Positions 46,873-64,000 of a stretch of DNA of 64,000 nucleotides are shown in pieces. The stretch covers positions 902,001-966,000 of the forward strand of contig NZ_CP132910.1 in the NCBI RefSeq assembly GCF_030846775.1, read 5' to 3'. The notes beneath the pieces were generated by a model that had not been told where the DNA came from, made no database searches, and saw only the letters and a list, made by a program, of their open reading frames with translations. Position 1 is the first letter of the stretch. Each line of letters starts with the position of its first letter. The DNA comes from Geothrix sp. 21YS21S-2 (GTDB lineage: Bacteria > Acidobacteriota > Holophagae > Holophagales > Holophagaceae). The translations under genes were made by a program, and so were the position numbers.

Positions 46873-47021
46873 GATCAGGCGTCCTTGGGAAGAAACCAGC
46901 TGGCAGACAGCTGGGCATGGGTGCGATCATCCAACTATAGGCCGAATCGCCCCCGCGAACCTTGGCCATTTCCCGGTACGCCCCATCCCGGAAGGTTCGT
47001 TCGGGAACCCCGGCGGTCCCG

Positions 47022-47438
47022 TCAGGGGTACCGGCGCCGCACCTCGGCCAGGGACCCGGCGACGAGCCGCTCCAGCACCGCCAGGTCCAGGTCGCCGAGC
47101 TGTCGAACGTACAAACAGGCCTTGCCCACCTTGTGCCTTCCCAGCTTCGCGAGGAGTTCGTCCCGCCCGGGGAAACCGGCCATCAGGTAGATGCTGATAT
47201 CGCCCTTCCGGGAGGCGAAACCCACCTGGCAGGAGTCCCCTTCCCTGCCGCTCTCGTACCTGTAGTGATAGCTTCCGAAGCCCACGATGCCGGACCCCCA
47301 CATGACTGCCGGATAGCCGGTCACGCGGGTCATCAGACGGACCAGCTCCCGGCAGTCGTCGCGCCTGGATCCATCGGCGATTCCGGCGAGGTAGGCCTCC
47401 ACGCTGGCCTGGGTGGGTCGGGTCTTGTTCTCAGCCAT
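47022..47438 (-). CDS. DUF1801 domain protein
   Basis: A 138-aa cytoplasmic protein. TRPTQASVEAYLAGIADGSRRDDCRELVRLM at the start, MWGSGIVGFGSYHYRYESGREGD in the middle and KACLYVRQLGDLDLAVLERLV at the end are the DUF1801/YdhG pattern. Function of the family is unknown (YjbR/frataxin-like fold). A second in-frame ATG at 47453 is possible; neither has a strong ribosome site. Last chromosomal gene before the integrated element. Confidence 0.8.
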   Translation of the reverse strand: MAENKTRPTQASVEAYLAGIADGSRRDDCRELVRLMTRVTGYPAVMWGSGIVGFGSYHYRYESGREGDSCQVGFASRKGDISIYLMAGFPGRDELLAKLGRHKVGKACLYVRQLGDLDLAVLERLVAGSLAEVRRRYP

Positions 47439-47454
47439 GGGAAGAAAATACATG

Positions 47455-47477
47455 AAAAGCCCCCGGGATCGGGGGCT
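47455..47477 (-). terminator. Rho-independent terminator (minus strand), distal tRNA-Cys terminator
   Basis: AGCCCCC / GGGGGCT 7-bp stem with a 6-nt loop, followed on the minus strand by TTTT. It lies downstream of the tRNA-Cys fragment in transcription direction. Confidence 0.65.
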
Positions 47478-47604
47478 GTATCTGCGGGAAATTGCCCGCC
47501 TCGGGCCGTGCAGGGAAAGTATCGGTTCTCCGGGAGTGCGGTCAACCCCGCCGCAACCGCCGGCCGAGGGCGCGGGAACAGGACGGCAGGATTGGAGACC
47601 TGGG

Positions 47605-47640
47605 AAAAAAGCCCGGAGATCTGGTCTCGCGGGCTTCTTC
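47605..47640 (-). terminator. Rho-independent terminator directly after tRNA-Cys
   Basis: On the minus strand AAGCCCG pairs with CGGGCTT, with an inner GAGA/TCTC stem, then six Ts. It begins 7 nt past the CCA end of the tRNA-Cys fragment, so it is the original host terminator of that tRNA gene. Confidence 0.85.
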
Positions 47641-47646
47641 ATCTAC

Positions 47647-47694
47647 TGGAGGCGCCGATCGGAATCGAACCGATGAATGGCAGATTTGCAGTCT
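47647..47694 (-). other. tRNA-Cys 3' fragment: attachment site of the integrated element
   Basis: Read on the minus strand, this is the 3' part of tRNA-Cys: anticodon stem-loop AGA CTGCAAA TCT (anticodon GCA), T-arm with GGTTCGATTCC, and acceptor strand ending GGCGCCTCCA with encoded CCA. No 5' half (acceptor GGCGCC plus D-arm) exists upstream; AT-rich element DNA begins in the anticodon stem. This is the expected att remnant after integrase recombination in a tRNA gene. The complete tRNA-Cys should be rebuilt at the far end, beyond 64,000. Confidence 0.85.
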
Positions 47695-48448
47695 TGGTTT
47701 CTTGCAATAACAACCTTTATTTTCAACATTTAGCTATTTTAATTAACAATTTTTAGGCATTGAATCTAAATATACTTAGCCATATCAAGGATTTGAAGGT
47801 CGGACAAAATCCGGACATTCCTTCTGGTTCCATGCACTTGCATTTCTATTATAATCAATACTTACGTATTTGGCTTGTTAATATTGAAGTATTCATTGTA
47901 ATTTCTATTCAGTGGTTCTCTGGATTTATATGAATTTGTCTAAACCTTTGATCTGTCAAGCAGATTAGTAATCTGGAGCAAGTGCCAAACATCAGTGATT
48001 GCTAAAATACCATTGCGACGCCTTCTCAATTGCCCCGCCCTACCCTGTCCAGCATCCCGAATACCCAAGATGCCTACTACCTGCACTTAGGGTCATGCCG
48101 ATTCTACCCTAGCCCTAAGTGTTGAAATGGTTGCGCATTCTAAGGCTTTGCCTGCCAACCCTACCCTGCCTGGACACGACAGAGGCCCAGGCGGTGAGAA
48201 TATGTCTCGTTTTTTGGCATAAAGATTAGTATTAGGGATGATAGGTCTTTGGATTAGAGATCATGGGGCAAAACCCAAAAGATTAGAAATCGTTTGCCGG
48301 AGGATTCAACATTACGGCCCTACCTGCTAGGGCACTTTTTCGGAGATTTTGGCTAAAAGGCAAATTGTTAACAAATCCGTGACATGAACCATTTAATGAT
48401 GCACTTATTTTTCATATTTTTACCGTTATTCTACTTCGCTTTTTTGAA
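47695..48448. other. Gene-free left arm of the element with short repeats
   Basis: About 750 bp with no convincing gene. It contains CCCTACCCTG at 48,038 and 48,159, variants CTACCCTA at 48,104 and GCCCTACCTG at 48,318, and a 9-bp inverted pair CACTTAGGG (48,084) / CCCTAAGTG (48,113). A further CCCTACCCTA lies near the other end of the element (62,687). Repeats next to an att site suggest integrase arm sites or a replication/regulatory region, but this is inference. Confidence 0.45.
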
Positions 48449-48518
48449 GTGCGAGCGGTTGGGAACGGTTATAGCTCTCCTGCCCTATCCATTGGAGCAC
48501 TGTTGCTCCCACTCGCAC
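48449..48518. other. tRNA-like folded element upstream of the RHH gene
   Basis: A 70-nt segment closed by a perfect 7-bp stem GTGCGAG (48,449) / CTCGCAC (48,512) and containing a perfect hairpin GGAGCA-CTGT-TGCTCC (48,494-48,509). The minus strand holds GCTCCAATGGATAGGGCA, close to a tRNA D-arm (GCTCAATGGATAGAGCA). No T-arm (GTTCRANNC) or proper anticodon arm can be folded, so it is not a functional tRNA; it could be a decayed phage tRNA or a cis-acting RNA. Confidence 0.4.
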
Positions 48519-48528
48519 AGGAGCCGCC

Positions 48529-48708
48529 ATGGCCGCACCACTCAAAGCACCAGAGATTAGAGCAAGAAGCAAAATCAATACCTACCTTACTAAAAGCACA
48601 CATGACAAGCTGAAGGAGCTTGCAAAAGGGCATAACACAACCATTAGCAACATTATCAAGGAATTGGTAGAAGTCTACCTCAACCAAGAAACAGAAAAGG
48701 AGAAATAG
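48529..48708 (+). CDS. Ribbon-helix-helix (Arc/MetJ-like) DNA-binding protein
   Basis: A 59-aa protein with AGGAG 6 nt before ATG. After a basic N-terminus (APEIRARSKINTYLTKSTHDKL) come two short helices, KLKELAKGHNTTISNIIKELVEVYL, the layout of RHH repressors in which INTYL would form the DNA-contacting strand. Likely a regulator of the element, possibly of its own operon with the two genes that follow at 2-nt spacings. Confidence 0.65.
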   Translation: MAAPLKAPEIRARSKINTYLTKSTHDKLKELAKGHNTTISNIIKELVEVYLNQETEKEK

Positions 48709-48710
48709 AA

Positions 48711-49148
48711 ATGGCATCCATCAATTGCGAAACATTCATTTGCGGAATCAATGTATTCCCCACATTCAGCGTTAGGCGGGAACCTCAAATGAGATTGAAT
48801 TTCCCCAATGCTTATGAATTCCTGGACGAAAGCACACTCTTGAACATCATCAAATTTTTTGATTACATTGATGATGACGATAAGAGAAATGCATTCGCGG
48901 CTGAATACATCAAAGAAAACAAGCTAAAATTATACAATTTGTTGCTTGATACGCATGTGAGGCCGCTTGATTTTTGTCTTGAATGCAGGCGCATCTTTGA
49001 CCTCTTCACTCTGGAAAAAGCCTACACCTGGACATATGAAGGTGAAACACTCACATTGAAATACACCCTAGAAACCGTCAAAAACAACGATGAGGCAAAA
49101 GAAGCATTATTCAACCGACTTGCGGTAATCAAAGGACAGGAGAAGTAG
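48711..49148 (+). CDS. Hypothetical protein of the element
   Basis: A 145-aa protein not recognised. GGAGAAATAG overlaps the stop of the RHH gene and serves as ribosome site, so translation is coupled. It is acidic, with FFDYIDDDDKRNAF and a helix-rich centre, and has three cysteines including one in FCLECRR. No membrane helix or signal. AT-rich codon use differs sharply from the host chromosome. Confidence 0.6.
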   Translation: MASINCETFICGINVFPTFSVRREPQMRLNFPNAYEFLDESTLLNIIKFFDYIDDDDKRNAFAAEYIKENKLKLYNLLLDTHVRPLDFCLECRRIFDLFTLEKAYTWTYEGETLTLKYTLETVKNNDEAKEALFNRLAVIKGQEK

Positions 49149-49150
49149 AA

Positions 49151-49417
49151 ATGACTAACAACCTTAACAATATCCAAGAGGCAGTAGACAAGCTCAACAT
49201 TCCAGAGCAGAAAGAAGTAGATGAAGCCTGGAAAGAGGCTTGTGAAGTGGCGTTAGACATTGCCAGAAATGATATTGAAGGCATTGACGACGATCTAATC
49301 AAAAATGTATACATGCCAAAAGAAGATAATGAATCAGATAAACACTATGAAGCCAGAGTAAAATTGGTATCAGAAGCTCTTGGAAAGATAGTGCTTTCGA
49401 TTCCTGATGCTGAGTAG
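49151..49417 (+). CDS. Hypothetical acidic protein of the element
   Basis: An 88-aa, highly acidic, helical protein (DEAWKEACEVALDIARNDIEGIDDD). AGGAGAAG lies just upstream and the gap to the previous gene is 2 nt. It is the third and last gene of the RHH operon, ended by a strong terminator. Acidic small phage proteins often mimic DNA or bind host enzymes; nothing specific supports that here. Confidence 0.55.
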   Translation: MTNNLNNIQEAVDKLNIPEQKEVDEAWKEACEVALDIARNDIEGIDDDLIKNVYMPKEDNESDKHYEARVKLVSEALGKIVLSIPDAE

Positions 49418-49426
49418 ATAGAGCTT

Positions 49427-49467
49427 AGGCCATCCTTTGAGAAATCATTGGATGGCCTATTTTTTTT
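49427..49467 (+). terminator. Rho-independent terminator of the RHH operon
   Basis: AGGCCATCC / GGATGGCCT is a perfect 9-bp stem with a 14-nt loop, followed by a run of eight Ts. It sits 10 nt after the last stop codon, between convergent operons. Confidence 0.9.
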
Positions 49468-49489
49468 GCCCATTTTCTGAATCAAAATA

Positions 49490-49990
49490 TCAAAATCCCT
49501 GACCTTGAATGAAATTTAATGCCTGCTCTCTTGTGACTTGTGTATATTTCTTTTTATCATTGCAGAGCAGAATCATGTTGCGATTATTTGCTCTATTTGC
49601 CGTGGCATATGAGGCGTGAATCCAGGTTCCGTGAGGATTCTGATCTGACATGCCCTCCAAGATAAGCTGATCAAAGATTATGCCTGCCTGGAGAATGAGC
49701 CGTAGGGCCTTTAGTAGTGGCATATCAGCAAGAACCATATCCAGAGCTTCAGCCCTTGCGTGTTGGCTTGTAGACACTCCACCTACCAGCCTATTAAGCT
49801 CGTCACATCTCCAGCCGGAATTGATGTGTATTGGCGTATTCAGTGCCTCTCTGATTGGTTCAAAGAGAAATTCGGCAAGGATCTTGGCTCTTGGAATCAA
49901 ATCATCTGGAAGCGAATTATCAATTCCATTCTTAACAGCAATATCAGAATGTTCCAATTCTTCTTTTGAAAGGTGTTTCGACAATTGCAT
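49490..49990 (-). CDS. Phage endolysin, M15A-type peptidase
   Basis: A 166-aa single-domain protein: N-terminal KHLSKEELEHSDIA, ILAEFLFEPIREALNTPIHINSGWRCDELNRLVGGV, then zinc ligands in SQHARAEALDM (His and Asp) and WIHASYA (His). This is the Peptidase_M15_3 type found in phage lysins that cut murein stem peptides. The usual G after SQHxx is replaced (SQHARAEA), which is unusual but spares the ligands. No signal peptide. Last gene of the minus-strand phage operon; the 37-aa membrane peptide at 52,715 could act as a holin. Confidence 0.75.
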   Translation of the reverse strand: MQLSKHLSKEELEHSDIAVKNGIDNSLPDDLIPRAKILAEFLFEPIREALNTPIHINSGWRCDELNRLVGGVSTSQHARAEALDMVLADMPLLKALRLILQAGIIFDQLILEGMSDQNPHGTWIHASYATANRANNRNMILLCNDKKKYTQVTREQALNFIQGQGF

Positions 49991-49991
49991 A

Positions 49992-50654
49992 CTATCTACC
50001 AGACATTAACCTATCAAGCTTTTCATTAATATTTCGTAGCTCAATTGAAATCTGAATCTCAAGCTTTGCAATTCTTACATCATGGTCTGACATCTTTGTA
50101 TTGGCACCTTCTGAATGATTTTCTAGCATGTCCAATCGTGCTGTAATAGCCTCAAGTGCAATTTCAACATCAGTATTGGCCTGTTCAACCATTGTCTTTG
50201 AATGGGTTGCACACTTTGAAGCCTGCTTATCTTCCTGAGTAGATTGTCTATCTTCTATAGCCTTCTTAAAGAGCGGTCTGATTTCTGGGCTATTGGAGAT
50301 GGACGGAGCGAGTCTGTCATCTGCGAATTTCTTCATAAGGGTATCTTTTGGGAAATAGATACCATTTGGACGAGGTTTGTAGTGTGTGTAGTAGAGAATA
50401 TAGGCAGTAATTACCTGGGATTTGCCTGTCTGACTTGCCAGCATAAATGTAATTCTTTGGTATCTCTTATCATTTCCTACGGCCAACATTTCATACTGAT
50501 ATGGCATTAGTGTTGTATTGTATCTGCCAGCAAACCTCGACTCACCACCCGCAACATACAGGAATATATTTGCCCAATCAGCAGGGTTAATATCTGGCTT
50601 TGGCTTGATAATAGTCAATACACGCCTAAGCGTGTCCTTAATTCTGATATCCAC
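49992..50654 (-). CDS. Truncated GpA-type terminase large subunit fused to a coiled coil
   Basis: A 220-aa protein. Residues 1-~115 match the start of GpA-family terminase ATPases: ADWANIFLYVAGGESRFAGRY, MPYQYEMLAVGND, the Walker A-like FMLASQTGKSQV and FADDRLAPSISNSPEIRPL. Then similarity stops and a long coiled coil follows (about 118-220: EIALEAITARLDMLENH, RIAKLEIQISIELRNINEKLDRLM). Walker B, the C-motif and the nuclease domain are absent (full proteins are ~600 aa). Either an internal deletion joined two genes, or this is a specialised protein that interferes with a helper terminase. Confidence 0.75.
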   Translation of the reverse strand: MDIRIKDTLRRVLTIIKPKPDINPADWANIFLYVAGGESRFAGRYNTTLMPYQYEMLAVGNDKRYQRITFMLASQTGKSQVITAYILYYTHYKPRPNGIYFPKDTLMKKFADDRLAPSISNSPEIRPLFKKAIEDRQSTQEDKQASKCATHSKTMVEQANTDVEIALEAITARLDMLENHSEGANTKMSDHDVRIAKLEIQISIELRNINEKLDRLMSGR

Positions 50655-51197
50655 TTAAATACTACTTTCTTCTATATCTTCATCTTCAATAAACACATTT
50701 TTGATAAATGTTGCCTCATTCATTTTCTCGAAAATTGCATCAATCTGCGCCTGGAGAATTGACGCTTTCTCGTCTTCTGTCTGTCCATCGTGGATGAGCT
50801 TTGAGGCTAGATCGCCAAAGCTTTCACGCATGGTATTAGCGGCTGAAATGGTTCTTGACCAGCCATCTTCAATATCACGAGCAGGCAGAAGAGCCTCTTT
50901 CTCTCGTTCGTATTTCAGCTTCTCTCTATCAGCTTCAATCTTGAGCTTCACCAATCGAGCTTGGTCTAATGGTCCCAAGTCTTCATCTTTCAAACCTGAT
51001 CGATACTTAACATACCAAGCAAGAACATCTTCAAGAACATAGTAATTTTTTGTTCTACCCACCTTTTCTGGATCAATACGAAATGGAAGACCCTTATCTT
51101 TAACCAAATTTGATATATGTTGTGGTGATAAACCTAATATATCATGAACATTATCAAGGGTCATATTATCTGTGTTAAGGTTTTTAATTATTGCCAT
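50655..51197 (-). CDS. Phage terminase small subunit (Nu1-like)
   Basis: A 180-aa protein directly upstream of the truncated large subunit (no gap). N-terminal winged-helix-like HTH (DNVHDILGLSPQHISNLVKDKGLPF) is followed by DQARLVKLKIEADREKLKYEREKEALLPARDIEDGW, the pattern of phage DNA-packaging Nu1/TerS proteins. The C-terminus is helical and ends acidic (FIEDEDIEESS). It would bind the packaging site of the element. Confidence 0.75.
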   Translation of the reverse strand: MAIIKNLNTDNMTLDNVHDILGLSPQHISNLVKDKGLPFRIDPEKVGRTKNYYVLEDVLAWYVKYRSGLKDEDLGPLDQARLVKLKIEADREKLKYEREKEALLPARDIEDGWSRTISAANTMRESFGDLASKLIHDGQTEDEKASILQAQIDAIFEKMNEATFIKNVFIEDEDIEESSI

Positions 51198-51256
51198 TAT
51201 ATATTCTCGCTATACCATATTGCGCTACTATCTTAGGGTCCAATATACTTAATCTA

Positions 51257-51288
51257 CTATTATATCTATATCAAATCGGTTCAAATCG
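51257..51288 (-). promoter_or_regulatory. Promoter and direct-repeat site upstream of the terminase genes
   Basis: On the minus strand TTGAAC (51,279-51,284) and TAATAG (51,257-51,262) are separated by 16 bp, within a very AT-rich segment ahead of TerS. TCAAATCG occurs twice exactly 10 bp apart (51,271 and 51,281), overlapping the -35 region, as expected for a regulator binding one face of the helix. Confidence 0.45.
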
Positions 51289-51418
51289 AGTAAGAGTAGT
51301 GGAAAAGCGGGCGTTGCGAACCTCCGATTTGCAGGCCATTTATGAAGGACCCATCGAAATCATGAGGGCGCATGAGTGATTGACCTTTCGTGCCCAACAT
51401 CTCTGATCACTCACCTTG

Positions 51419-52084
51419 CTACTTCTTTGGCCTCATGCTCTTGAATACCTGTTCGATAGCCTGCGTGAAGACCTCTTGGTATTCGCTTGAGACAATCTGG
51501 TTTGCCGTGTCTATGAAGTGGGGCTTCACAGGTCGAGTGATGCGGCTGGTCATGCGATAGATTGGCTTGATGGTCCTCTTCCCTGTTCTCTGGAAGATCA
51601 TGAGAGAGCCTGTGTCGCTCTTCAGTGAGAAGGTTCTATTGCCGCCTGTCTGGTGGGGCTGGATCGTGCCAGAGCCAAAGGTCAGGTTCCGCATAGCCAG
51701 AGCATTGGAGCCTCTTACGATCTTGTTTGTGAGCTTTCCAGCTTGAGCAGCCAAGAGAGATCGACCATTAGCCGGTGTGTGCGCCTGCCCTTCTTCAAAG
51801 GATGCCAATTGGGCATACTCAACAGAGATGGTGACATTCCACTTTGTCTTTGTTGCCCTATTCACCTTAGATATCTTGATTGAATTGAATATGAATTTCT
51901 TGCGTGAGTCTTTGATCTTGAATGAGGATTCGATACGCTCTCTCATTCTCTGTTGGAATCTATCAGCCAACATATTGAGACCTCGCTTAATAGCCTCTGG
52001 AATCTGGTCTTCTCTCTGGATATTTTTGAAGTATTCAATTACTGGCTGGACTTGCATATCAACATTAACAATCATCATCTTCAA
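51419..52084 (-). CDS. HK97 gp10-like / minor tail (head-tail joining) protein
   Basis: A 221-aa protein. IPEAIKRGLNMLADRFQQRMRERI, then EYAQLASFEEGQAH, and a C-terminal tail-domain region TRPVKPHFIDTANQIVSSEYQEVFTQAIEQVF resemble gp10-like tail-completion or minor-tail proteins. Basic overall. It is one of only two structural-type genes in the element. A ~220-bp gap separates it from TerS. Assignment is by overall pattern, not by an invariant motif. Confidence 0.5.
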   Translation of the reverse strand: MKMMIVNVDMQVQPVIEYFKNIQREDQIPEAIKRGLNMLADRFQQRMRERIESSFKIKDSRKKFIFNSIKISKVNRATKTKWNVTISVEYAQLASFEEGQAHTPANGRSLLAAQAGKLTNKIVRGSNALAMRNLTFGSGTIQPHQTGGNRTFSLKSDTGSLMIFQRTGKRTIKPIYRMTSRITRPVKPHFIDTANQIVSSEYQEVFTQAIEQVFKSMRPKK

Positions 52085-52091
52085 TCACCGG

Positions 52092-52718
52092 CTATTCTCC
52101 AGAATGATCGTCTGGCATAGAGTATGGATCTTCTCTACCGTCAGGATCATATGTCTCTTCATAGATTAAATCATCTGGATCACTTTGAAGTAGCCATTCA
52201 TCCATTGTTCCGGTATGGACAGCATGATCAGTGAGCTTCTGATTCATCCCTTGAAGATCAAATTTGAAGCGCATATAGAAGTATGTGTAGACAGTGGCAT
52301 AGACATCTATACCGTCTTTGTCCTGTCCAATCACCCGCTTTGGATCATACTTCCCAATATTCTTGATCCCAGATACCACAAGATTATTAAAACAATCTTC
52401 ATATAGATCACCCCATTTGGTCATACGCGCCATCATTCCATAGATCAGGCGACACAAGTAGAGAATGAAATCATCTCTATTGGCATCTGTCTTATTCAGA
52501 TTCCATTTGAGCCAGAGGTATTGACCAACCTCTGTGATGAATGGCGTCTTGGCTGGCCTGCCCTTCCTTGGCTTTGTGGACGGTTGAATCTCTGGGAAGT
52601 AGGCACAGGCTCGCTTGATGAAGGCTGGAGAGCATGAGTCAATGGTCCTGGTCTTTAATATTTCTTGGATGGTCCTCTTCTCTATTTCAGTGACCATCTG
52701 TTCATCGTATGGCATCAT
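52092..52718 (-). CDS. Sigma-70-region-2-like phage protein (gp55-like)
   Basis: A 208-aa protein. Residues ~85-155 (ILYLCRLIYGMMARMTKWGD, LYEDCFNNLVVSGIKNIGKYDP, then YATVYTYFYMRFKFDL) follow the order of sigma region 2: core-binding helix, helix with a K-Y-D-P turn, and an aromatic -10-recognition helix. This resembles T4 gp55-type late sigma factors. The C-terminus is very acidic (DPDGREDPYSMPDDHSGE). Alternatively a structural protein. It overlaps the 37-aa membrane peptide gene by 4 nt. Confidence 0.5.
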   Translation of the reverse strand: MMPYDEQMVTEIEKRTIQEILKTRTIDSCSPAFIKRACAYFPEIQPSTKPRKGRPAKTPFITEVGQYLWLKWNLNKTDANRDDFILYLCRLIYGMMARMTKWGDLYEDCFNNLVVSGIKNIGKYDPKRVIGQDKDGIDVYATVYTYFYMRFKFDLQGMNQKLTDHAVHTGTMDEWLLQSDPDDLIYEETYDPDGREDPYSMPDDHSGE

Positions 52719-52828
52719 CTTTTATTTCTTTCAATATACAAACAAATCAATAATGTTAATAACGCGATATCAAGTATTACGATAAAGGCCCATACCGTAT
52801 AACCCATCATCAATAACAGGAACCACAT
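52715..52828 (-). CDS. 37-aa hydrophobic membrane peptide (holin-like candidate)
   Basis: A small gene starting ATG 52828, overlapping the RusA stop (TAATG), and ending in TGA that overlaps the next start. The product is nearly all hydrophobic (FLLLMMGYTVWAFIVIL, ALLTLLICLY) with a basic tail ERNKR. Precise double translational coupling argues it is real. A small membrane peptide in the same operon as an endolysin could be a holin or pinholin; this is inference. Confidence 0.6.
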   Translation of the reverse strand: MWFLLLMMGYTVWAFIVILDIALLTLLICLYIERNKR

Positions 52829-53394
52829 TATGGAGTCTGAATAGCGACCTGGATATCCATGATCTCTATTTCTATCTTTTCTTCTACACTACAAATCTTC
52901 TGGAGGCACAAACCAAAGACCTGTGAATCGTCCAAGCCAGCCTCAATCTCTCTCAAGGCTTCAAATAGGGCATCAACAGCCGCCTTCTCATAGCTGGCAG
53001 CATCCTTGATCCTGATCCCACCGGCTTTTGTGAACCAGGTAGGACAGTGGAGCCGTAGAACCAGGCACAGGCTTTGACCTTTGAGAGCCTGAACATCACC
53101 AGAGAGGCCATGAGCTTCAATCTGTTTCAGAATCTCATGCTGAGCTATGGCTTTCCAGATTCTTCCTTCTGGTGTCAGGACTCGATATCGCCCTCTGGTC
53201 ATGTAAAGCTGATTAATAGATGGTGGGAAAGAAGATAGCTGGAATACAAGCATTGATTGATGGTCTCTAGAGATTAATTCTGTCTCTTGATCCGAGAGAT
53301 GAGACGATTTCTCAAATTTATTTTCAAAAATATCTGATATGCTCTGCCCATTCCGGGAGTCAGAGCATGTTTCTTCAAACGGTTCAGCAGGCAT
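52828..53394 (-). CDS. RusA-family Holliday junction resolvase
   Basis: A 188-aa frame; the RusA fold begins near residue 49 (VFQLSSFPPSINQLY), so the true start may be ATG 53253 (about 141 aa, usual RusA length). Motifs: PPSINQLYMTRGRYRVLTPEG, the acidic KDAASYEKAAVDALFEAL and DDSQVFGL, matching the metal-binding positions, though the normal D-x-D-N reads D-A-A-S here. It resolves branched DNA before packaging. If the longer start is used it overlaps the divergent gene at 53,367 by 28 bp. Confidence 0.75.
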   Translation of the reverse strand: MPAEPFEETCSDSRNGQSISDIFENKFEKSSHLSDQETELISRDHQSMLVFQLSSFPPSINQLYMTRGRYRVLTPEGRIWKAIAQHEILKQIEAHGLSGDVQALKGQSLCLVLRLHCPTWFTKAGGIRIKDAASYEKAAVDALFEALREIEAGLDDSQVFGLCLQKICSVEEKIEIEIMDIQVAIQTP

Positions 53395-54263
53395 GCTCTA
53401 ATTGCCATCCGGTTCATGGTGCGATTCAGCAGGCCTCCACTTCAAGCAATACCTTGGCCTGGATAGGTGCAATTGGGGCAATCACCGGAGGCATAGGAGC
53501 CTGTGTGGCAGCAATAATTTCCGGGTTTGCAGCCAGCATCAGCCGAGAATCAGCAAAGGCAAGCGAAGATGCTTTAGTCGTCAGCCGTGAAGCCGTTCAA
53601 TCAAGCAAAGATGCGGCAGAAGCCAGCCGGATATCTGCCGATATCATGCAAAAACAGTATCAAGATGAATCGGACCAAAAGAGGCCCTTGCTCGAATTCG
53701 GAAAGATTGAATTGACGAATAAAGATAGAGATAATTACTCTCAATACCATGACCCAACACGGTGCGTATTGCACAGATTCACAATACCCGTCAAGAACAA
53801 GCGTCAAGAATATCTTGAAGATATTTCATATATATATGCATTTTATAGCGACAACGAAATTATCGATATTGGCTTCAATTTTCACTCAATAGCCTATTCT
53901 TGCAGGGATCATTACATTATAGACGAGATAATTCAAAATCCAAAAAAATACCCCAACAAAGATGTTTATTTGTTTTTGTTTGTAAATGTTCACGACATTA
54001 ACGGAAAGAGCAAATTTGCAATATATGGCGAAAAATTTGATAAATCATGCTGCAATAATTTTAATATTACCATTAGCAAAAAGCTTGAACCAATCCAGCA
54101 TGAATTGACAGCCGCTATTGGTGAAATATATGCAGAAATCATAAATATGAGCAAAGCACATCTAAGGTATAACAAAAGAGATAAAATGATTAGACTATTA
54201 GAACAAGACGCTTTATTCATAAAAAGCCTTGAACAGTGTAGAAAAATAAATCCAGATTTATAG
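53367..54263 (+). CDS. Membrane-anchored protein, family A member 1 (CxxCH, TM, coiled coil, soluble domain)
   Basis: A 298-aa protein of unknown function; GGGAG precedes ATG 53367. N-terminal segment QACSNCHPVHGAIQQ (residues 8-22) contains C-x-x-C-H-x-x-H. A TM helix follows (about 30-54, AWIGAIGAITGGIGACVAAII), then a charged coiled coil (about 56-100, SRESAKASEDALVVSREAV) and, after KRPLLEFGKIEL, a beta-rich soluble domain to the end. Positive charges after the TM favour N-out/C-in. It is the first of three tandem paralogs on the plus strand. Confidence 0.7.
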   Translation: MFLQTVQQACSNCHPVHGAIQQASTSSNTLAWIGAIGAITGGIGACVAAIISGFAASISRESAKASEDALVVSREAVQSSKDAAEASRISADIMQKQYQDESDQKRPLLEFGKIELTNKDRDNYSQYHDPTRCVLHRFTIPVKNKRQEYLEDISYIYAFYSDNEIIDIGFNFHSIAYSCRDHYIIDEIIQNPKKYPNKDVYLFLFVNVHDINGKSKFAIYGEKFDKSCCNNFNITISKKLEPIQHELTAAIGEIYAEIINMSKAHLRYNKRDKMIRLLEQDALFIKSLEQCRKINPDL

Positions 54264-54278
54264 CCAAGGAGCCAGAGC

Positions 54279-55196
54279 ATGTTACTTGAGCCAATTAAAC
54301 AGGCTTGTTCTAATTGCCATCTGGTTCATGTGGCAATTCAGCAAATCCAACAGGTCCAGGCACCTCCCATGCCAACACCGGGTTTTCTTTCATTGAATTG
54401 GGGCAACCTGGCCTCTCTTGCTGGTGCCATTGTCGCTGGTGTGGCGGCCTATCAAGCAAAGATTGCAGCAAGGGCCAGCCGGGAATCAGCAGATGTGATG
54501 AAGAAGGAATACAAACAGCAGCTAAATCAGCAGAAACCAGTAATGGATTTTGAAAGCATCATATTTCATAGTGACACAAAGAATGGCCAGATATTAGGCT
54601 CAAAAATATATCCAAGATTTATTACCGTCAAAATCAGTAACATCAAGGGTGAAAATATTAATTACGTTGACTATGTTTATGCGGTTACAGACGATTCAAA
54701 GGTGCTATCTATTGGTTATGAAAACATGCCTCTTCAATACAGTCATTGTTATAGGCATACGCTTAACATCGACCTAGAGAATGATAGCAATTATAATCCA
54801 GAGAATATGTTTTTATTCATTTTTCTATCTGTTATGGATTCATCGAATAGAGAAGCCTTCTCAATATATGGTCAGCAGGTTAAACCTGGAAATAGCTTTG
54901 ACGCACTTGAAACAGAAATATCAAAGCCTATTGATACAAATTATTTGATTCTTGATTCAATTAGAGAAATCATCTGGGACCACGTAATAGTGAATATGGA
55001 TACATACGACCAATTATGTCTATCTCAAATATTAAATCAGGACCTTGATTTCCGTGAATTTAGAAAGCAACCTCAATACAAAGATTTTCTGCCTGACATT
55101 TGGGAAATTGTTGATAAGGAACCTGAAGAAGAGAAGAAGTCTATATGGTCGAAATTCCGAAAAAGAGTGAAGCTGAAAGAAGACCAAATAGTATGA
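54279..55196 (+). CDS. Membrane-anchored protein, family A member 2
   Basis: A 305-aa paralog of the preceding gene, AAGGAG before ATG, 15-nt gap. Residues 8-22 repeat the N-terminal motif (QACSNCHLVHVAIQQ) at identical positions; the nucleotide sequence there is also conserved. A P-rich linker, a TM (about 41-60, LASLAGAIVAGVAAYQAKI) and a short coiled coil (ASRESADVMKKEYKQQ) lead to QKPVMDFESIIF and the soluble domain. The C-terminus is basic (SIWSKFRKRVKLKED). Soluble domains of members 1 and 2 are clearly diverged, as if binding different partners. Confidence 0.7.
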   Translation: MLLEPIKQACSNCHLVHVAIQQIQQVQAPPMPTPGFLSLNWGNLASLAGAIVAGVAAYQAKIAARASRESADVMKKEYKQQLNQQKPVMDFESIIFHSDTKNGQILGSKIYPRFITVKISNIKGENINYVDYVYAVTDDSKVLSIGYENMPLQYSHCYRHTLNIDLENDSNYNPENMFLFIFLSVMDSSNREAFSIYGQQVKPGNSFDALETEISKPIDTNYLILDSIREIIWDHVIVNMDTYDQLCLSQILNQDLDFREFRKQPQYKDFLPDIWEIVDKEPEEEKKSIWSKFRKRVKLKEDQIV

Positions 55197-55228
55197 TGTA
55201 TCCTCTTACGCATCAGTGGAGATAGACC

Positions 55229-56059
55229 ATGTTCCTTGATCCTGTCTACCATGTGGCTGTTCAAGCGATGCCTCACCAAAGCTGGCTCTCTACAAATGGG
55301 CTAAGTGCCCTTGCAGCTACTGCTTCATTCTTGGCTGCTGGTGCAAGCTGGCTAAGTGTCTACTGGGCGAACAAGGCCAGAAAAGAGGAATTGGATAGGA
55401 GCAAACCAGATTTACAATTTGGCTATATGAATGTTGAAGATTCATCATCAGTCGAAAAAGATTTCAACATGGTTGACTTGAAATTCATGCTATACAACAC
55501 GAAAAGAAACAAAATCCAGAGTATAGAGCAGACAATATTTATAACCTATCCGAGTAATGTAAAAAAAGATACAAGCAGATACCACTTTGACTACATGATA
55601 GGAACAGATGGGCATCAAATTGATCTACAACACAATATATTGCCATGTCCAGAACCAAAATCATTGATAATAATGATGCTTAAGACAACAGATGTATTTG
55701 GCAATACTGGTGAAAACATTTTCACATTATATTTTATAATAAAAGGAATGGCAATTCAATCTGGTGATGAAATGGAAATGTGCATGAAAGAAAGAAGACC
55801 TGTATTATATCAGGCAAATTCGGCTGGACAATTGGCACTTGGCGAAACAGCTTTTGTTCCATATCTACATCCAGCCATTATTGATAGACTTGTAATATGC
55901 CTAACAGATATTCACGATGATAAAATCGATAAGATGCTGTTTGACAAGGACTTGATTAATGCTCTACGCAAATTCAAATTTCGCAAGATACTTGGCAGAT
56001 TTAACATAATAAAACATATTCGTGTAGCAATAAAAAGCATGATACACAAGATGCATTAG
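55229..56059 (+). CDS. Membrane-anchored protein, family A member 3
   Basis: A 276-aa protein, GGAG before ATG 55229. It keeps the layout (MFLDPV start, TM about 25-45 GLSALAATASFLAAGASWLSV, charged linker NKARKEELDR, then SKPDLQFGYMNV and a beta-rich domain) but lacks the CxxCH segment, having VYHVAVQAMPHQSW instead. It ends inside a hairpin. Function unknown; co-oriented and closely spaced with members 1 and 2, so one transcript is likely. Confidence 0.7.
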   Translation: MFLDPVYHVAVQAMPHQSWLSTNGLSALAATASFLAAGASWLSVYWANKARKEELDRSKPDLQFGYMNVEDSSSVEKDFNMVDLKFMLYNTKRNKIQSIEQTIFITYPSNVKKDTSRYHFDYMIGTDGHQIDLQHNILPCPEPKSLIIMMLKTTDVFGNTGENIFTLYFIIKGMAIQSGDEMEMCMKERRPVLYQANSAGQLALGETAFVPYLHPAIIDRLVICLTDIHDDKIDKMLFDKDLINALRKFKFRKILGRFNIIKHIRVAIKSMIHKMH

Positions 56060-56102
56060 GCCAATCATACACATAATATCTCTACCTGTAATATTGGCCT
56101 AA
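56056..56102 (+). terminator. Hairpin at the end of the family A operon
   Basis: TTAGGCCAAT (56,056) and ATTGGCCTAA (56,093) form a perfect 10-bp stem with a 27-nt loop that includes the stop codon of member 3. There is no T-run, so it may be a processing or protective 3' structure rather than a Rho-independent terminator. Confidence 0.5.
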
Positions 56103-56152
56103 ACAAGATGATTTAACATCTATTGACCTATTCAATTCAATCTCTTTGTATC

Positions 56153-56187
56153 GTAAAACCCACTCGCTTCGCTCGTTAGGGTTTTAC
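56153..56187. repeat. Perfect 9-bp inverted repeat with CTCGCTTCGCTCG core
   Basis: GTAAAACCC (56,153) and GGGTTTTAC (56,179) enclose ACTCGCTTCGCTCGTTA, itself partly palindromic. A second REP-like hairpin (CCTCGCC-TTC-GGCTCGG, about 56,192-56,208) follows immediately. The pair is GC-richer than its surroundings and resembles bacterial REP elements. Confidence 0.7.
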
Positions 56188-56786
56188 TCTTCCTCGCCTT
56201 CGGCTCGGAGAAACACTAAAAGAATAATCTTTTAATGAAGATAACCTATGACTTTCCCCAGCAACCATTCTCTAAAAAATGGTCTGACTATCAGACCTAA
56301 AAGAGATTCAATGGCTACTGGTGAAGTGGTATAGATTCAACCTACCGGATTTCTAAAGGTGAAGGTCAATTTGATTCCTGAGTCTAAATTGATTGCTTCT
56401 GGAGAGGGTCACGCTGTTCCCCACTTTAGTCTTACTCCAGACTTCACAGCCTGGACATGACGGTAATTCCCTAACAACCAAATCCGGTAGCAATTAGGGC
56501 ATTCACTCTTACGAGTGGCTATAATAACAAGTCGAAGTAGATTATAGCTTCCTGAGACGGTTCCTAAAACATCTGCCGCTATCATTCCTCGGCTACTTTC
56601 CAGGTCTTGGCCTCTATAATATAATTCGGACGATTGAACCGTCCGTAAAAGCGATTTTGAAAATATATTTTTCAACGTGATCAAAGCCACTCTCTACAGA
56701 AATGGCAGACCAGAGATTATCATTAACATTTGTAATGGTCATACATTGCATAATAATCAATAACACTATTCTATAACAATTCCATT
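56188..56786. other. About 600 bp without a convincing gene
   Basis: After the hairpin pair no frame looks like a protein. A 93-codon minus-strand frame (56,409-56,690, GTG start) contains CPNC and ends ...GVRLKWGTA, faintly like the decayed 3' end of an IS605-type tnpB gene, but it lacks the rest of any such domain. A small dyad CGGACG/CGTCCG lies near 56,628-56,646. The stretch may hold a transposon remnant or a structured RNA. Confidence 0.35.
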
Positions 56787-57542
56787 CTAATCTTCTAAAT
56801 ATGAACCTTTTGGCTTCATAACAAATTTCTTCAATTCTTCTAAATAATCACCCTTGGGTTCCATATTTTTTAATAGCTCAATAGCCTTCACCGGATCAAG
56901 ACCAAGATCAGAGGCAACCTCTTCAAAAATCAATTGATCTAATGCAGGATCAAAGTCTTTCGTCGCAATTCGTGTATAATTTTCAATTAAATCAATAATA
57001 AAATTAATATATTTGCGTATTCTATCCAATTCTTTCCTTTTTGCATCATCAATCCCTTCATCAAAAGTGGATACGGTGCCAAGCAAGGGCGTCAACATGA
57101 AAGGGATAGACCCCAAGAGCATTTCAATGCGATCTACAATCACTTTATCAAGATAGGCTTTATGATTTGAGAAAATAGCATTACATTCTGAGAATGCTTT
57201 AGTGTAATTCTTTAATTCTTTTTTGAATTCATCAGGTCTTTCAAATGCGATACTACCTCTCATGCCGTTATACGATTTTGACAAGACGTGGGTAGCGATA
57301 GAAAATGCCCCAACAAATTGAAATCTCTTCTCCTGTTCAAGCTTGTGAGAAAATGCTTCCTTTCCCAAATCAGATTCCAGCCTCTTCATCTTTTCATCAA
57401 TACCGCTTTGGTAATCTTTTAGATTCTTCTCTACTGCCTCTCGGATCTTTTCGTCCGTAGCCTTGACCAGGGTTTTCAGGCTCCACCAGCCATAGACTCC
57501 AAGCCCAAGTAAGCCGATCTCTCCCCATATCAGTCCAATCAT
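56787..57542 (-). CDS. TM + coiled-coil protein of the element
   Basis: A 251-aa protein of unknown function: N-terminal TM (about 4-22, LIWGEIGLLGLGVYGWW), a long coiled coil (about 23-75, KIREAVEKNLKDY, EKMKRLESDLGKEAF) and an all-helical domain (about 80-251). The C-terminus carries a near-duplicate MEPKGDYLEELKK / VMKPKGSYLED. Different from family A but with the same single-anchor plan. Its ATG overlaps the stop of a 43-aa hydrophobic peptide gene (ATGA). Confidence 0.65.
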   Translation of the reverse strand: MIGLIWGEIGLLGLGVYGWWSLKTLVKATDEKIREAVEKNLKDYQSGIDEKMKRLESDLGKEAFSHKLEQEKRFQFVGAFSIATHVLSKSYNGMRGSIAFERPDEFKKELKNYTKAFSECNAIFSNHKAYLDKVIVDRIEMLLGSIPFMLTPLLGTVSTFDEGIDDAKRKELDRIRKYINFIIDLIENYTRIATKDFDPALDQLIFEEVASDLGLDPVKAIELLKNMEPKGDYLEELKKFVMKPKGSYLED

Positions 57543-57670
57543 GTTCGGCTCCGAAGCGAATCAACCTGTAGTAGCACGACCAGAACCATCAAGCAAGAGA
57601 TGCCTACTCCAAGTCCGGCCAAAAGTCCCAAGATGGAACCAAGGCCACACGGCAATTCAAGAAACACCAT
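57539..57670 (-). CDS. 43-aa hydrophobic membrane peptide
   Basis: ATG 57670 to TGA 57,541-57,539, overlapping the next ATG by 4 nt. The product is almost one continuous hydrophobic stretch (GSILGLLAGLGVGISCLMVL, then VVLLQV) with a basic end DSLRSRT. The tight coupling to the TM/coiled-coil gene suggests a functional pair; no strong ribosome site is visible upstream. Confidence 0.5.
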   Translation of the reverse strand: MVFLELPCGLGSILGLLAGLGVGISCLMVLVVLLQVDSLRSRT

Positions 57671-57752
57671 TACAGTGAATCTCTAAATTAATTTCATCCC
57701 GATTCAATAGACCCGAATCGTATTTATGAATTAAATATCAGAGATTCACACA

Positions 57753-57905
57753 ATGGACAATGATACACGCAAGATACTATTACAAAAGCTCAAGTATGAT
57801 TTAGAAGCTCTTGATGCAGCAACAGAGAGTGTCCTAACAGATATTGAGACAGTAGAACAGCAGAAGATAGACATCATGCTCCAAATCCTATACGGGCTGG
57901 AGTAG
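57753..57905 (+). CDS. 50-aa acidic coiled-coil peptide
   Basis: ATG 57753 to TAG 57,903-57,905. The product is helical and heptad-like (KILLQKLKYDLEALDAATES, TDIETVEQQKIDIMLQIL). It is coupled to the HNH gene: the junction reads TAGTGATG. Unknown function; possibly a partner or leader peptide of the HNH protein. No strong ribosome site, so moderate confidence. Confidence 0.5.
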   Translation: MDNDTRKILLQKLKYDLEALDAATESVLTDIETVEQQKIDIMLQILYGLE

Positions 57906-57907
57906 TG

Positions 57908-58441
57908 ATGAGCGAAACCATAAGCCGTAAAGAGCAATTAGAAGAAGATGTATACGCACTTCTCAAGAAGCTGGACATGCTTCAAACAAGGGTATTGTCT
58001 GTCGCTTGGCACATGATTCCCCATCTCCAGTCTGAATTCCCAATGCTCCCACGAGGGAAGGTCAAGCGAGAGGATGAAGAGAGGTTCCTTGAGGATTTCT
58101 ACCAGGCCTACAGCAAGGGCACCTTTGATGCCTACCTGAAGAAGCGAGAAGAGAGATGGGCCTTCTACCGCTCTCCAGAATGGGCAGAGAAGAAGGCAGA
58201 GGCCTACAAGGTCTTTGGGCACCGCTGCATGGCCTGCGGAGCCTCTGGCGGGCCTCTATCAGTCGATCACATCATCAGCCGCAATGAGGCACCAGAGAAG
58301 GAGCTTGAAATCAAAAATCTCCAGATTCTCTGCATCTTTTGCAATAAGGGAAAGAGTGGTTCCAGACAAGATTACAGGAAGAGAGAAGACCTGCTAAGTC
58401 TAATCAGGCACCTTGGAATCAAGCTCAACAAAGCAAGCTAA
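57908..58441 (+). CDS. HNH endonuclease
   Basis: A 177-aa protein; ATG 57908 has GGAG upstream. A helical N-terminal half (about 1-85) precedes the HNH motif: zinc CMACGAS, LSVDHIISRNEAPEKELEIKNLQILC and the second zinc pair CIFCNKGKS. This is the standard H-N-H with a double CxxC zinc knuckle. Phage HNH proteins aid cos cleavage by terminase, home, or attack foreign DNA. GC usage is higher than in the flanking genes. It ends next to the convergent family A member 4. Confidence 0.85.
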   Translation: MSETISRKEQLEEDVYALLKKLDMLQTRVLSVAWHMIPHLQSEFPMLPRGKVKREDEERFLEDFYQAYSKGTFDAYLKKREERWAFYRSPEWAEKKAEAYKVFGHRCMACGASGGPLSVDHIISRNEAPEKELEIKNLQILCIFCNKGKSGSRQDYRKREDLLSLIRHLGIKLNKAS

Positions 58442-59344
58442 TCAAAGATCACCCAATCTAATCACATTGATTTTGGCAGAAGCAACCTGCCTTTTTGATG
58501 TTTTCCCCATTTTTCTACTTGAAGCTGGGCGCATTCGCCGTCCAGAACCAACAACCTTAATAAGTCCAACCAATGAAAGCATTGATAATAATTCAGTATT
58601 GATATGTTTTTCAAAATATTTTTCAATTCCAACATTAACGATTGGATTAATATCGCCATTACTGCAATACAGCATGGATGGCATATCCGTAAATTCCGAT
58701 TTGCCTGAGTATCTAATTGTTCTTATTTTGGCATACATGTAATTTGTAAGCATTTTGCTATTCGGCGCATAATGTATAAAATACACACCCCTACTAATAA
58801 GACCGTCTATTCCTTCAGCTTCAACGATCAATACAATTTCTACGTTAGATTCTTTATACCTTATGCGTGGAGAGCGAACAATAATAGCAATTGATGACTT
58901 GTTGCCTCCAAGGACTTTATTACTCAATATATCGGTAGAGCCTTCATTCCTTCCTATCTTGCCATACATGGGTATCGTCTCTAAATCAGTCGCATCAGTC
59001 GATATTCTTTTCCCATCTTTCATTATTTCAAATATAACATATCTGATATTATTTAATGGCTTATTTCTGATGTTTTCAAGCTCAAACCGTATTGCAATAT
59101 TGTTAAAAAGACCATCTTGATATGTCAAATTGTCCTTCAATACTAGAATGGGTTTGTCAGCGTCTTCACGTTTTTGTCTTTCTATTTTTTGCTCTCTGTT
59201 ACTTCTAATCCCATTGTAAATTGCGAATATAGCACCGCAACCAGTAAATAATGTGAACAGTCCAGAGAATTGAGCAATTTTTTCCCATAATGCTTTTGGC
59301 GGGACCTGTTCTACTACAATTCGTATTACTTCTCCAGGTAACAT
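58442..59344 (-). CDS. Membrane-anchored protein, family A member 4
   Basis: A 300-aa protein; ATG 59344 follows GGAG by 5 nt. The plan matches the three tandem genes: short N-terminal outside segment, TM (about 26-45, FSGLFTLFTGCGAIFAIYNG), basic/charged linker RSNREQKIERQKREDA, then DKPILVLKDN and a beta-rich soluble domain. The C-terminal 40 residues are strongly basic (GSGRRMRPASSRKMGKTSKR). It lacks CxxCH. Encoded on the opposite strand, 2.4 kb from the tandem copies. Confidence 0.65.
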   Translation of the reverse strand: MLPGEVIRIVVEQVPPKALWEKIAQFSGLFTLFTGCGAIFAIYNGIRSNREQKIERQKREDADKPILVLKDNLTYQDGLFNNIAIRFELENIRNKPLNNIRYVIFEIMKDGKRISTDATDLETIPMYGKIGRNEGSTDILSNKVLGGNKSSIAIIVRSPRIRYKESNVEIVLIVEAEGIDGLISRGVYFIHYAPNSKMLTNYMYAKIRTIRYSGKSEFTDMPSMLYCSNGDINPIVNVGIEKYFEKHINTELLSMLSLVGLIKVVGSGRRMRPASSRKMGKTSKRQVASAKINVIRLGDL

Positions 59345-59364
59345 CAAATCTCCAATCTACATTT

Positions 59365-59958
59365 TCATCCCAGGTAATTTGCTTTCTCCATAAGCATTTT
59401 CAAAATATCCAATGGCCTTTGACGGTCCTTCTCTGTAAAAGCAATTGATGGACGGTAATACTGACCAACGCCAGTCCTATAACCATCATTCCAAGGTATA
59501 TTTATAATCGATTCTACTTCCAATAGATATTTTTCCATCATGTCAACAAATTCAGGCCCCAAATGAATCATTTGCATTCTTGAAAATGTAATCAATTCTT
59601 GTGTCCTTTGACGAATATTACCAATGGCGTATTTGGGATCATCTTGCGATTTTTCAATCTGCCAATAGCTTTTGACGTTATTATATATTTGGTCCAATAC
59701 CTCCTGGTAATGTCTTGAAATATCATAATGAATCTTTTGCATTCTTCTTTCTTCAATTTTTGCTTCTTCCATTGCCTTTAATTCGGCAGACCTGTCTATC
59801 TTTGCCAATTCAAGCTCATTTCCCAATTTAATCTTTTTCACTTCTCCAGCGTAAACCAGATATTTCTCAAATCCTTTGTATGCAGCGTATGCAATAACAA
59901 GAGCAATAGATAGCACTAGGCCATACGTCTTTACAATGTATATCCATAGATTTTCCAT
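59365..59958 (-). CDS. TM + coiled-coil protein of the element
   Basis: A 197-aa protein with GGAG 8 nt before ATG. TM about 10-28 (TYGLVLSIALVIAYAAYKG), a strongly charged coiled coil (about 38-75, LELAKIDRSAELKAMEEAKI), then a helical domain with YQEVLDQIYNNVKSYW and a C-terminal region with NIPWNDGYRTGVGQYYRPS. Not recognised. Same strand and 20 nt upstream of family A member 4, so probably co-transcribed. Confidence 0.65.
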   Translation of the reverse strand: MENLWIYIVKTYGLVLSIALVIAYAAYKGFEKYLVYAGEVKKIKLGNELELAKIDRSAELKAMEEAKIEERRMQKIHYDISRHYQEVLDQIYNNVKSYWQIEKSQDDPKYAIGNIRQRTQELITFSRMQMIHLGPEFVDMMEKYLLEVESIINIPWNDGYRTGVGQYYRPSIAFTEKDRQRPLDILKMLMEKANYLG

Positions 59959-60099
59959 TGTTCGATCTCCAATCTTTTATTTTGGTTGTTTGGCGTTTTT
60001 GCCTTTTGAGTCGGTTGTCTTACTAATTCCAAAATCAGCATTTTACATCTAATTAATCAATCCCAACGGTGATTCGACAATAGTATTTGAAGCTTGTCA

Positions 60100-60720
60100 C
60101 TAAGCAAAAATCGATTTTAACAATGGGATCACGAGCTTAAAAACAAATGATCCGAAATAAATTATAATAGTAATATTAAAAACGCTGAAGGCAGTAACAA
60201 GAATTAGATAAGCAATTTTCTTGCTTTTCTTAAACACATTTTCACCATCTCTTACAATATTCCATTCTTTTTTTAACATATACGCAAATGCATCTATCAC
60301 TGACTCAAATTGCGCTATTCTCAATACCGAGTCAGCAAATCTAGCCTTACCGTTTGTATCAGCCTGTATTTCCTTTATCATGGAAACAAGTCCAGAATGC
60401 TCTGTCGGATTTAGCCTGAGTATTATGCGATTAGCCAGGGCATTCATCTTTGATAGTGCGTCCATGTGTGTTTCTGGTTTTATTTCCACATGGTTCACAG
60501 TATGTATAACATGGTTGCCATGGTCCGTAAATCTATATAATGCGTTCACCAAACCAAAGAAATCTGAAACATCAATTCTTATCGCATCTATCCAAGCTTG
60601 CCTAAATTTGGATATCTCATTTTCCTTTGAAATAATCATGCTAATATAGGAGAAGCCACCCGCGATTAGTGCGGCCGAAATAACACCCACTACGGCTAGA
60701 AATTCCTTGTAATTTTCCAT
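60100..60720 (-). CDS. Multi-span helical membrane protein of the element
   Basis: A 206-aa protein; ATG 60720 is chosen because GGAG lies 6 nt upstream. TM1 about 8-30, then ENEISKFRQAWIDAIRIDVSDF, a pattern seen in many uncharacterised small membrane proteins of phages and defence islands (K-I-x-x-F-R-Q-x-W-I-D-x-L/I-R). A helical soluble domain (HVEIKPETHMDALSKMNALANR) is followed by a C-terminal TM hairpin (IAYLILVTAFSVFNITIIIYF and VFKLVIPLL). Function unknown. Confidence 0.65.
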   Translation of the reverse strand: MENYKEFLAVVGVISAALIAGGFSYISMIISKENEISKFRQAWIDAIRIDVSDFFGLVNALYRFTDHGNHVIHTVNHVEIKPETHMDALSKMNALANRIILRLNPTEHSGLVSMIKEIQADTNGKARFADSVLRIAQFESVIDAFAYMLKKEWNIVRDGENVFKKSKKIAYLILVTAFSVFNITIIIYFGSFVFKLVIPLLKSIFA

Positions 60721-60745
60721 GTTTTCTCCCATCCATTATTATTCA

Positions 60746-61255
60746 CTACAGATTTTCACGTTCTTTGGTTAATCTTGTTCCGTATATTATTTTCAGGAAA
60801 TTCAATTTACCGTCTTCACTACTAATAAGTAATAACGTTATATCAATTTTTCCCAAAATCCAGATCATTTCTTTTCTAGTAAATGACGCCACATCGGTTC
60901 GCTTTGGCATTCCGTATTTATCCGATAAGCTTTTGAACAAATTACTATACGTATTTACGGCTGAAGCTCTACCAATTTCAGAGGGAGCAGACAAGTGAAC
61001 CTGCTTCAATTTATCATTTTTAATATAAAACATAGCCGTAAAGGATTCACCATCGAGCATCACATCTTTCAGAATATACGGAGACGTTGAACCATCACTC
61101 AATGGGCTATCTTCTGGATTAGGAACCAGCCCTTTAATGGTTTTCAATAGCTCCTTTGTAGACATTCCTGCCCTTGCCTCTTTCCAGAGTGCCTGGGCAT
61201 TGGCCATATTGGTAAGCAGACAGGGAACCGAAAGAAATAATACAAGTGGTCTCAT
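60746..61255 (-). CDS. Exported small protein, GM-x-x-x-E (SmpA-like) type
   Basis: A 169-aa protein; ATG 61255 is preferred since GGAGAGG lies just upstream and a signal peptide (RPLVLFLSVPCLLTNMANA-QA) follows. The mature part begins EARAGMSTKELLKTIKG, the G-M-s-x-x-E pattern of SmpA/OmlA-like repeats, and later has LSDKYGMPKRT. It resembles the divergent lipoprotein at 61,379. Role unknown; envelope protein carried by a mobile element. Confidence 0.6.
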   Translation of the reverse strand: MRPLVLFLSVPCLLTNMANAQALWKEARAGMSTKELLKTIKGLVPNPEDSPLSDGSTSPYILKDVMLDGESFTAMFYIKNDKLKQVHLSAPSEIGRASAVNTYSNLFKSLSDKYGMPKRTDVASFTRKEMIWILGKIDITLLLISSEDGKLNFLKIIYGTRLTKERENL

Positions 61256-61378
61256 GACCTCTCCGGCTTGGTTGGAATCTGGAGAGATGGTAGTCCCATC
61301 CTCTCTTAAATCCAAGAATCTTTGGTTGACCAAATCTGGTTCTGCTAATCTCGTGGCATCCATCAGACAGGAGAACCC

Positions 61379-63697: not shown

Positions 63698-64000
63698 ATG
63701 CCAGCACCAAAGCTAAAGGCACCAATTATTAAGCTTGCAACAAAGGAAGAGGCTGTAGCTAAAGACAGGGTATCCAGGGGCGGATTGAAGAAGAGAGGCC
63801 GATACTACCACTATCGATTTGAGGTAGAAGGCCATGAATACACAGGCTCCACCAAACAGGAGACCTTGAAAGAGGCTAAGAAAGAGCTAGAAAGGCAGAG
63901 ACAGAAGATCCACCATCGGACCAAAGGAACACCTTTCAATCCCCTACTTTCCGAGCTAATCACAGAATGGGAGAAGACCCAAAGAGCGGACAACCATTCA
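63698..64000 (+). CDS. Tyrosine-type phage integrase (N-terminal part; continues past window)
   Basis: ATG 63698 with AGGAGAG upstream; 101 codons are open to the edge. KRGRYYHYRFEVEGHEYTGS then TKQETLKEAKKELERQRQK is the arm-site-binding (AP2-like) N-terminal domain of phage integrases, and PLLSELITEWEKTQRA begins the SAM-like core-binding domain. The catalytic domain lies outside. Its position by the expected intact tRNA-Cys end fits the integration model. Confidence 0.85.
   Translation, partial: MPAPKLKAPIIKLATKEEAVAKDRVSRGGLKKRGRYYHYRFEVEGHEYTGSTKQETLKEAKKELERQRQKIHHRTKGTPFNPLLSELITEWEKTQRADNHS

Follow-up and report, generated by a model that had tools for sequence, protein, structure and literature searches.

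A truncated terminase large subunit gene joined to an unrelated coding tail in a tRNA-Cys island of Geothrix sp. 21YS21S-2: probable deletion scar in a cryptic prophage

In the genome of Geothrix sp. 21YS21S-2, an intact gene for a terminase small subunit (TerS) is followed directly by a gene whose 220-residue product starts as a GpA-type large subunit (TerL) and ends as something else. A preliminary description of this locus had proposed that the short protein may redirect or poison the terminase of a helper phage, with a simple deletion scar as the alternative, which raises the question of whether the fusion gene was selected for such a role or left behind by a deletion. The alternative proved to be the better reading: the fusion gene is probably the scar of a deletion that a cryptic prophage has undergone. 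The analyses covered a window of 64,000 nucleotides, corresponding to positions 902001-966000 of the 5.25-Mb single contig that makes up the genome; positions below are those of the window unless stated otherwise.

The terminase locus

The fusion gene, its two parts and its immediate neighbours are the following:

49490..49990, minus strand: M15 peptidase of the endolysin type (PF08291, E 2.5e-16; phrog_894 endolysin, E 1.2e-28)
49992..50654, minus strand: fusion gene of a TerL N-terminus and a tail, 220 aa, GTG start (PF05876 and phrog_15)
49995..50252, minus strand: non-TerL tail, residues 135-220, helical or coiled-coil-like, coding in the frame of the fusion gene
50253..50651, minus strand: TerL-derived part, residues 2-134, with a Walker A-like SQTGKS (our own HMM ends at residue 134, Pfam and PHROG at 146 and 144)
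50655..51197, minus strand: TerS, intact, 180 aa, ATG start (phrog_57, E 3e-15, residues 17-164)

Both open reading frames reported earlier at 49992-51197 are real, and the upstream one is indeed a normal TerS. The genes are tightly packed, with 0 nt between TerS and the fusion gene (the TAA of the former is followed at once by the GTG of the latter) and 1 nt between the TAG of the fusion gene and the ATG of the M15 peptidase. The Pfam GpA_ATPase profile PF05876 matches residues 40-146 (E 2.5e-20), covering profile positions 2-109 of 247, and phrog_15, a TerL family, matches residues 6-144 (E 3.6e-31). Like GpA-family TerLs (PF05876; lambda gpA, phrog_15), the fusion protein has the family N-terminus up to residue ~134-146, the SQTGKS motif and a TerS encoded directly upstream; by the HMM and the multiple alignment, the TerL N-terminus is retained. 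Unlike these enzymes, it measures 220 aa instead of ~590-780 aa, ends in an unrelated tail of 75-85 residues and lacks both Walker B, in keeping with the partial profile match, and the C-terminal nuclease, for which the C-terminal model scored no better than on shuffled sequences. The earlier claims that Walker A is kept while Walker B and nuclease are missing are thus upheld by the profile match and by the Walker B and C-terminal models. The truncation itself was also recognized correctly, but its extent was not: the TerL residues kept number 134 by our HMM, or 144-146 by PHROG and Pfam, rather than ~115.

Nature of the tail

The similarity to TerL ends sharply within the fusion protein. With our own HMM, for which 15 distinct full-length TerLs were used, the alignment spans residues 5-134, and shuffling the tail leaves the score unchanged (74.3 bits versus a mean of 74.1). 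An ancient natural shortening, in which a diverged TerL-like protein would carry a degenerate TerL continuation as its tail and would have been reused outside packaging, finds some encouragement in BLASTP, where the alignment with a single TerL (L016) extends to residue 170, and in the multiple alignment, which sets the tail opposite the Walker B region and the RNExLD motif. However, the profile and shuffle tests support neither region, so that these alignments stand at chance level. The model of the Walker B region, on which 15 of 15 true TerLs score 49.9-99.4 bits in leave-one-out tests, gave no scored hit with a 62-residue slice, and on the model of the C-terminal nuclease motif the tail did no better than 389 of 1760 scored shuffles. 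A degenerate TerL tail, whether from the Walker B region or from the C-terminal RNExLD motif, was rejected on the shuffled-tail controls, and natural shortening is accordingly very improbable. Even less credence can be given to a sequencing or assembly error, or a recent frameshift, that would have broken a full TerL and left its remainder in another frame. The abrupt end of TerL similarity is what such an event would leave, but the final 309 bases of the fusion gene, read in three frames, score from -3.5 to -5.1 on the Walker B region model, with no TerL signal. In a tblastn search with three full-length TerLs against the six frames of the island, two of the three queries gave matches at E < 0.5 to the fusion N-terminus only and the third gave nothing below E 1; a frameshifted TerL remainder elsewhere in the island was thereby rejected.

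The tail is nevertheless coding. Its codon score is 0.248 in its own frame, none of the five other frames exceeds -0.083, and 0 of 2000 base shuffles scored as high. As the tail is coding but not TerL, two coding segments have been joined. The preliminary description had the protein continue as a coiled coil; an unrelated tail is confirmed, and a coiled coil is plausible from the sequence, with a crude heptad score that 205 of 2000 shuffles reached and an AlphaFold model that places two helices in the tail at a mean pLDDT of 38.9, too low for use. A sequence search of solved structures returned chance matches only (best E 0.79), and the tail region gave no sign of structured RNA (z 0.63; 141 of 200 shuffles folded equally well).

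The island in tRNA-Cys

The GC content of the window is ~70% up to 47 kb and drops to 35-47% from ~47.6 kb on. This change coincides with an island of 17,538 bp, counting both att copies, with ~40% GC and integrated in tRNA-Cys. Besides the terminase locus, its recognizable features are:

47647..47694, no strand: attL, 48-bp copy of the 3' part of tRNA-Cys
48529..48708, plus strand: Arc-like repressor (phrog_2639, E 1.6e-7)
51419..52084, minus strand: gp10-like/minor tail protein (phrog_1924, E 1.4e-11; phrog_27, E 3.4e-8)
52092..52718, minus strand: protein without a match in the Pfam and PHROG scans, in the same gene row as the gp10-like gene
52828..53394, minus strand: RusA-like resolvase (phrog_34, E 5.6e-6)
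57905..58441, plus strand: HNH endonuclease (PF01844, E 4e-8)
63698..64000, plus strand, running on to genome position 966888 and adjoining attR: tyrosine integrase, 396 aa (L007:1698-2888; PF00589, E 5.8e-15; phrog_1, E 6.9e-38)
Genome positions 967137-967184 (L007:3137-3184), beyond the window: attR, perfect 48-bp repeat inside the intact tRNA-Cys

The tRNA-Cys gene, called at L007:3137-3211, is complete on the integrase side of the island. The 48-bp att sequence occurs twice in this genome and exactly once in three of five other genomes of the genus; it was not found in the remaining two, both of which are drafts. Since the sequence is single and the flank to the right of tRNA-Cys is conserved in two of the three single-site genomes, these three genomes have an undivided site.

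The gene row of the island runs in the order RusA-like, unmatched protein, gp10-like, TerS and cut TerL. No portal, capsid or replication genes were recognized by Pfam and PHROGs among the island open reading frames scanned, in agreement with the earlier statement that capsid genes are lacking. The gp10-like/minor tail gene and the endolysin-type M15 gene had gone unmentioned in that description. A primase or replication module was likewise not detected by Pfam, by PHROGs or, for ten proteins, by NCBIfam, a search from which remote versions could escape. With 48-bp att repeats in tRNA-Cys, a phage integrase, remnants of RusA-like, TerS, gp10-like and endolysin type, and neither portal nor capsid among the frames scanned, the island resembles cryptic prophages with late-gene deletions; it differs from them in that ~10 kb of it consists of orphan genes and no intact parent was found.

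Satellites offer the other comparison. As far as passages of PMC6092414 describe them, phage-inducible chromosomal islands (PICIs) are ~15 kb long, contain no structural or lytic genes and have a conserved replication module. The island is PICI-like in its size, its att sites, the absence of capsid genes and its TerS, which is sometimes present in PICIs and other satellites; unlike them, it keeps the M15 endolysin and gp10-like genes, and no primase or replication gene was found. Its assignment as a PICI was rejected on the presence of these lytic and structural genes and on the missing replication genes. The Pseudomonas satellite AH14b, as presented in parts of PMC4936722, is of similar size and has a primase but no recognized terminase or lytic gene, whereas the island has TerS and an endolysin and no primase was found in it.

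Distribution of the truncated architecture and relatives with full-length TerL

Truncation of this kind stands out among the genomes compared. A GpA match at E <= 1e-10 is present in 8 of 93 genomes of the class, at 10 places in total, nine of which extend to position 247, the profile end, and have frames of 633-779 aa; the fusion alone stops at 109, in a frame of 220 aa. The fusion protein itself matches nine places in eight of 396 phylum genomes at E <= 1e-6, the other eight lying in frames of 631-717 aa, and six places in four of 77 family genomes, the other five lying in frames of 635-706 aa. None of the 124 phage and 83 plasmid records with a match was matched over 80% of the query, and none of the stretches returned by pattern scans of viral_contigs and genome_contigs (8 and 9, respectively) was confirmed as a relative. 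At the sequence level, the joint of truncated TerL and tail is unique within the material searched, as seen by architecture scans that detect close relatives only, so that a distant copy may exist unseen. Similarly, viral_contigs yielded no close relatives of TerS, of the gp10-like protein or of the 208-aa protein, and phage records none of TerS or the gp10-like protein.

The nearest counterpart of the late genes lies in the same genome, where a second prophage at ~835-857 kb (L009 from 6 kb, L028 to 8 kb) has the order gp10-like, TerS, full TerL (631 aa), portal, protease, structural protein and major head protein. Like the island, it carries gp10-like, TerS and the TerL N-terminus in the same order, with identities of 34, 27 and 24%, respectively; unlike the island, it has a full-length TerL, portal, protease and major head protein, and a GC content of mostly 60-69%. 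It is a distant relative of the island late genes and a possible helper. At E <= 1e-4 it was also the sole other match of the gp10-like protein in the 396 phylum genomes. In another genus of the family (L027), an Arc-like gene, a weak RusA-like match (E 0.005), a primosomal-type protein, a weak gp10-like match (E 6e-4, in a small sequence set), TerS and a full TerL follow one another, and in L030 the gp10-like gene is followed by a full TerL. Although the TerLs compared share only 21-26% identity with the fusion, the recurrent order gp10-like, TerS and full TerL in relatives indicates that the full length is ancestral and the fusion derived. A full-length terminase between the same flanks, which according to the preliminary description would reveal a local deletion, was recovered at family level only: the upstream flank of gp10-like and TerS recurs in the second prophage and in the different genus, but neither the same site nor the downstream flank does.

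Origin of the fusion gene

We propose that an in-frame deletion, with one end behind codon 134-146 of terL and the other inside a small helical gene located just before the M15 endolysin gene, fused the start of the former to the 3' part of the latter, and that the same event would have taken out the remainder of terL together with the head-tail genes. The product would be unable to package DNA and would have no selected role. Its persistence could be explained if frame and translational coupling had been kept by chance on both sides, and lysogeny presumably can do without it. The deletion itself we infer, neither an ancestor at this site nor a DNA-level relative having been found. Two observations run against a plain version of these events. 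The open reading frames around the fusion are open and show no visible decay; furthermore, a simple deletion from the order of the second prophage or L030 would not yield the order of the island, because there the small membrane or coiled-coil genes sit upstream of the gp10-like gene and not beyond TerL.

Phages with related endolysins are informative on the possible source of the tail. An M15 relative was found in 478 phage records, six of which were examined for the gene abutting M15 upstream; these genes are mostly small, and several are membrane- or coiled-coil-like by eye, while in two of the phages M15 comes after a very large gene or a tail fibre gene. The closest phage M15 relative (43% identity) has a small coiled-coil-like protein encoded directly upstream, and in alignment with this protein the tail outscores 995 of 1000 shuffles, the best result among five proteins tried (29, 185, 388 and 658 of 1000 shuffles were at or above the score for the other four). 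Because coiled coils look alike and five proteins were tried, this match lends weak support. Given the gene orders in the second prophage and L030, the ancestor would need either lysis genes after the late operon, an order suggested by the two phages with M15 behind a very large or tail fibre gene, or a rearrangement.

The explanation that most deserves to be weighed against a deletion scar is that the fusion protein acts on TerS: the island would be a satellite, the N-terminus of the fusion would bind its own or a helper TerS, and the tail would oligomerize, so that the helper TerL is kept off or redirected. Such a decoy has several facts in its favor. The TerL N-terminus has been kept and abuts an intact TerS, and in lambda the TerS-binding part is indeed located in the N-terminal domain of TerL, according to passages of PMC9026076. 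The size, att sites and absence of capsid genes of the island are satellite-like, and the other prophage of this genome encodes TerL, portal and major head protein. We nonetheless consider a decoy unlikely. No conserved architecture was found in viral_contigs, genome_contigs, the 77 family and 396 phylum genomes or the matching phage and plasmid records, and the redirecting or poisoning of a helper terminase suggested earlier is left unsupported by all these sets. No replication module was found, lytic and tail-type genes are kept, unlike in PICIs, and the TerS of the island is only 27% identical to that of the possible helper. Selection for a role as TerS decoy was not seen in any result. The more specific proposal of an undescribed satellite of a GpA-packaging phage, with a selected decoy that would bind TerS, multimerize through its tail and starve or redirect the helper motor, is less likely again; interference would here proceed via a broken TerL rather than via TerS or an Rpp-like protein. 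If true, a decoy would add a large-subunit route to the ways in which satellites interfere with packaging. We know of no satellite that interferes via the large terminase subunit, and a limited literature search yielded none using a truncated TerL, by title or abstract. The known cases of packaging interference covered by that search act via TerS, Rpp or cos. A deletion scar, should this preferred reading be correct, would provide a clear example of a late-operon deletion that welds a motor fragment to a neighbour gene with both translational couplings kept, and would caution against taking such fusions for designed proteins.

Other genes of the island

HNH endonucleases of the PF01844 type are often found beside terminase genes; the HNH gene of the island is located ~7 kb from TerS. 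Scans for promoters and terminators gave results at chance level, and no Rfam family reached its gathering score in 47000-64000. Between 53367 and 62659, orphan proteins of ~200-300 aa are encoded in a row, several of them with one N-terminal hydrophobic stretch (by eye). Searches of Pfam, PHROG and PADLOC gave nothing convincing for them, and they look like putative cargo, possibly for defence; defence models run on ten proteins gave matches at E > 0.005 only. Two of the orphan genes are tandem paralogues (53367-54263 and 54279-55196; 27-29% identical), the second without a relative in other genomes among the 77 of the family. A 76-nt direct repeat, 80% identical, lies over their start regions (53356-53431 and 54268-54343), which suggests that an orphan gene was duplicated in tandem.
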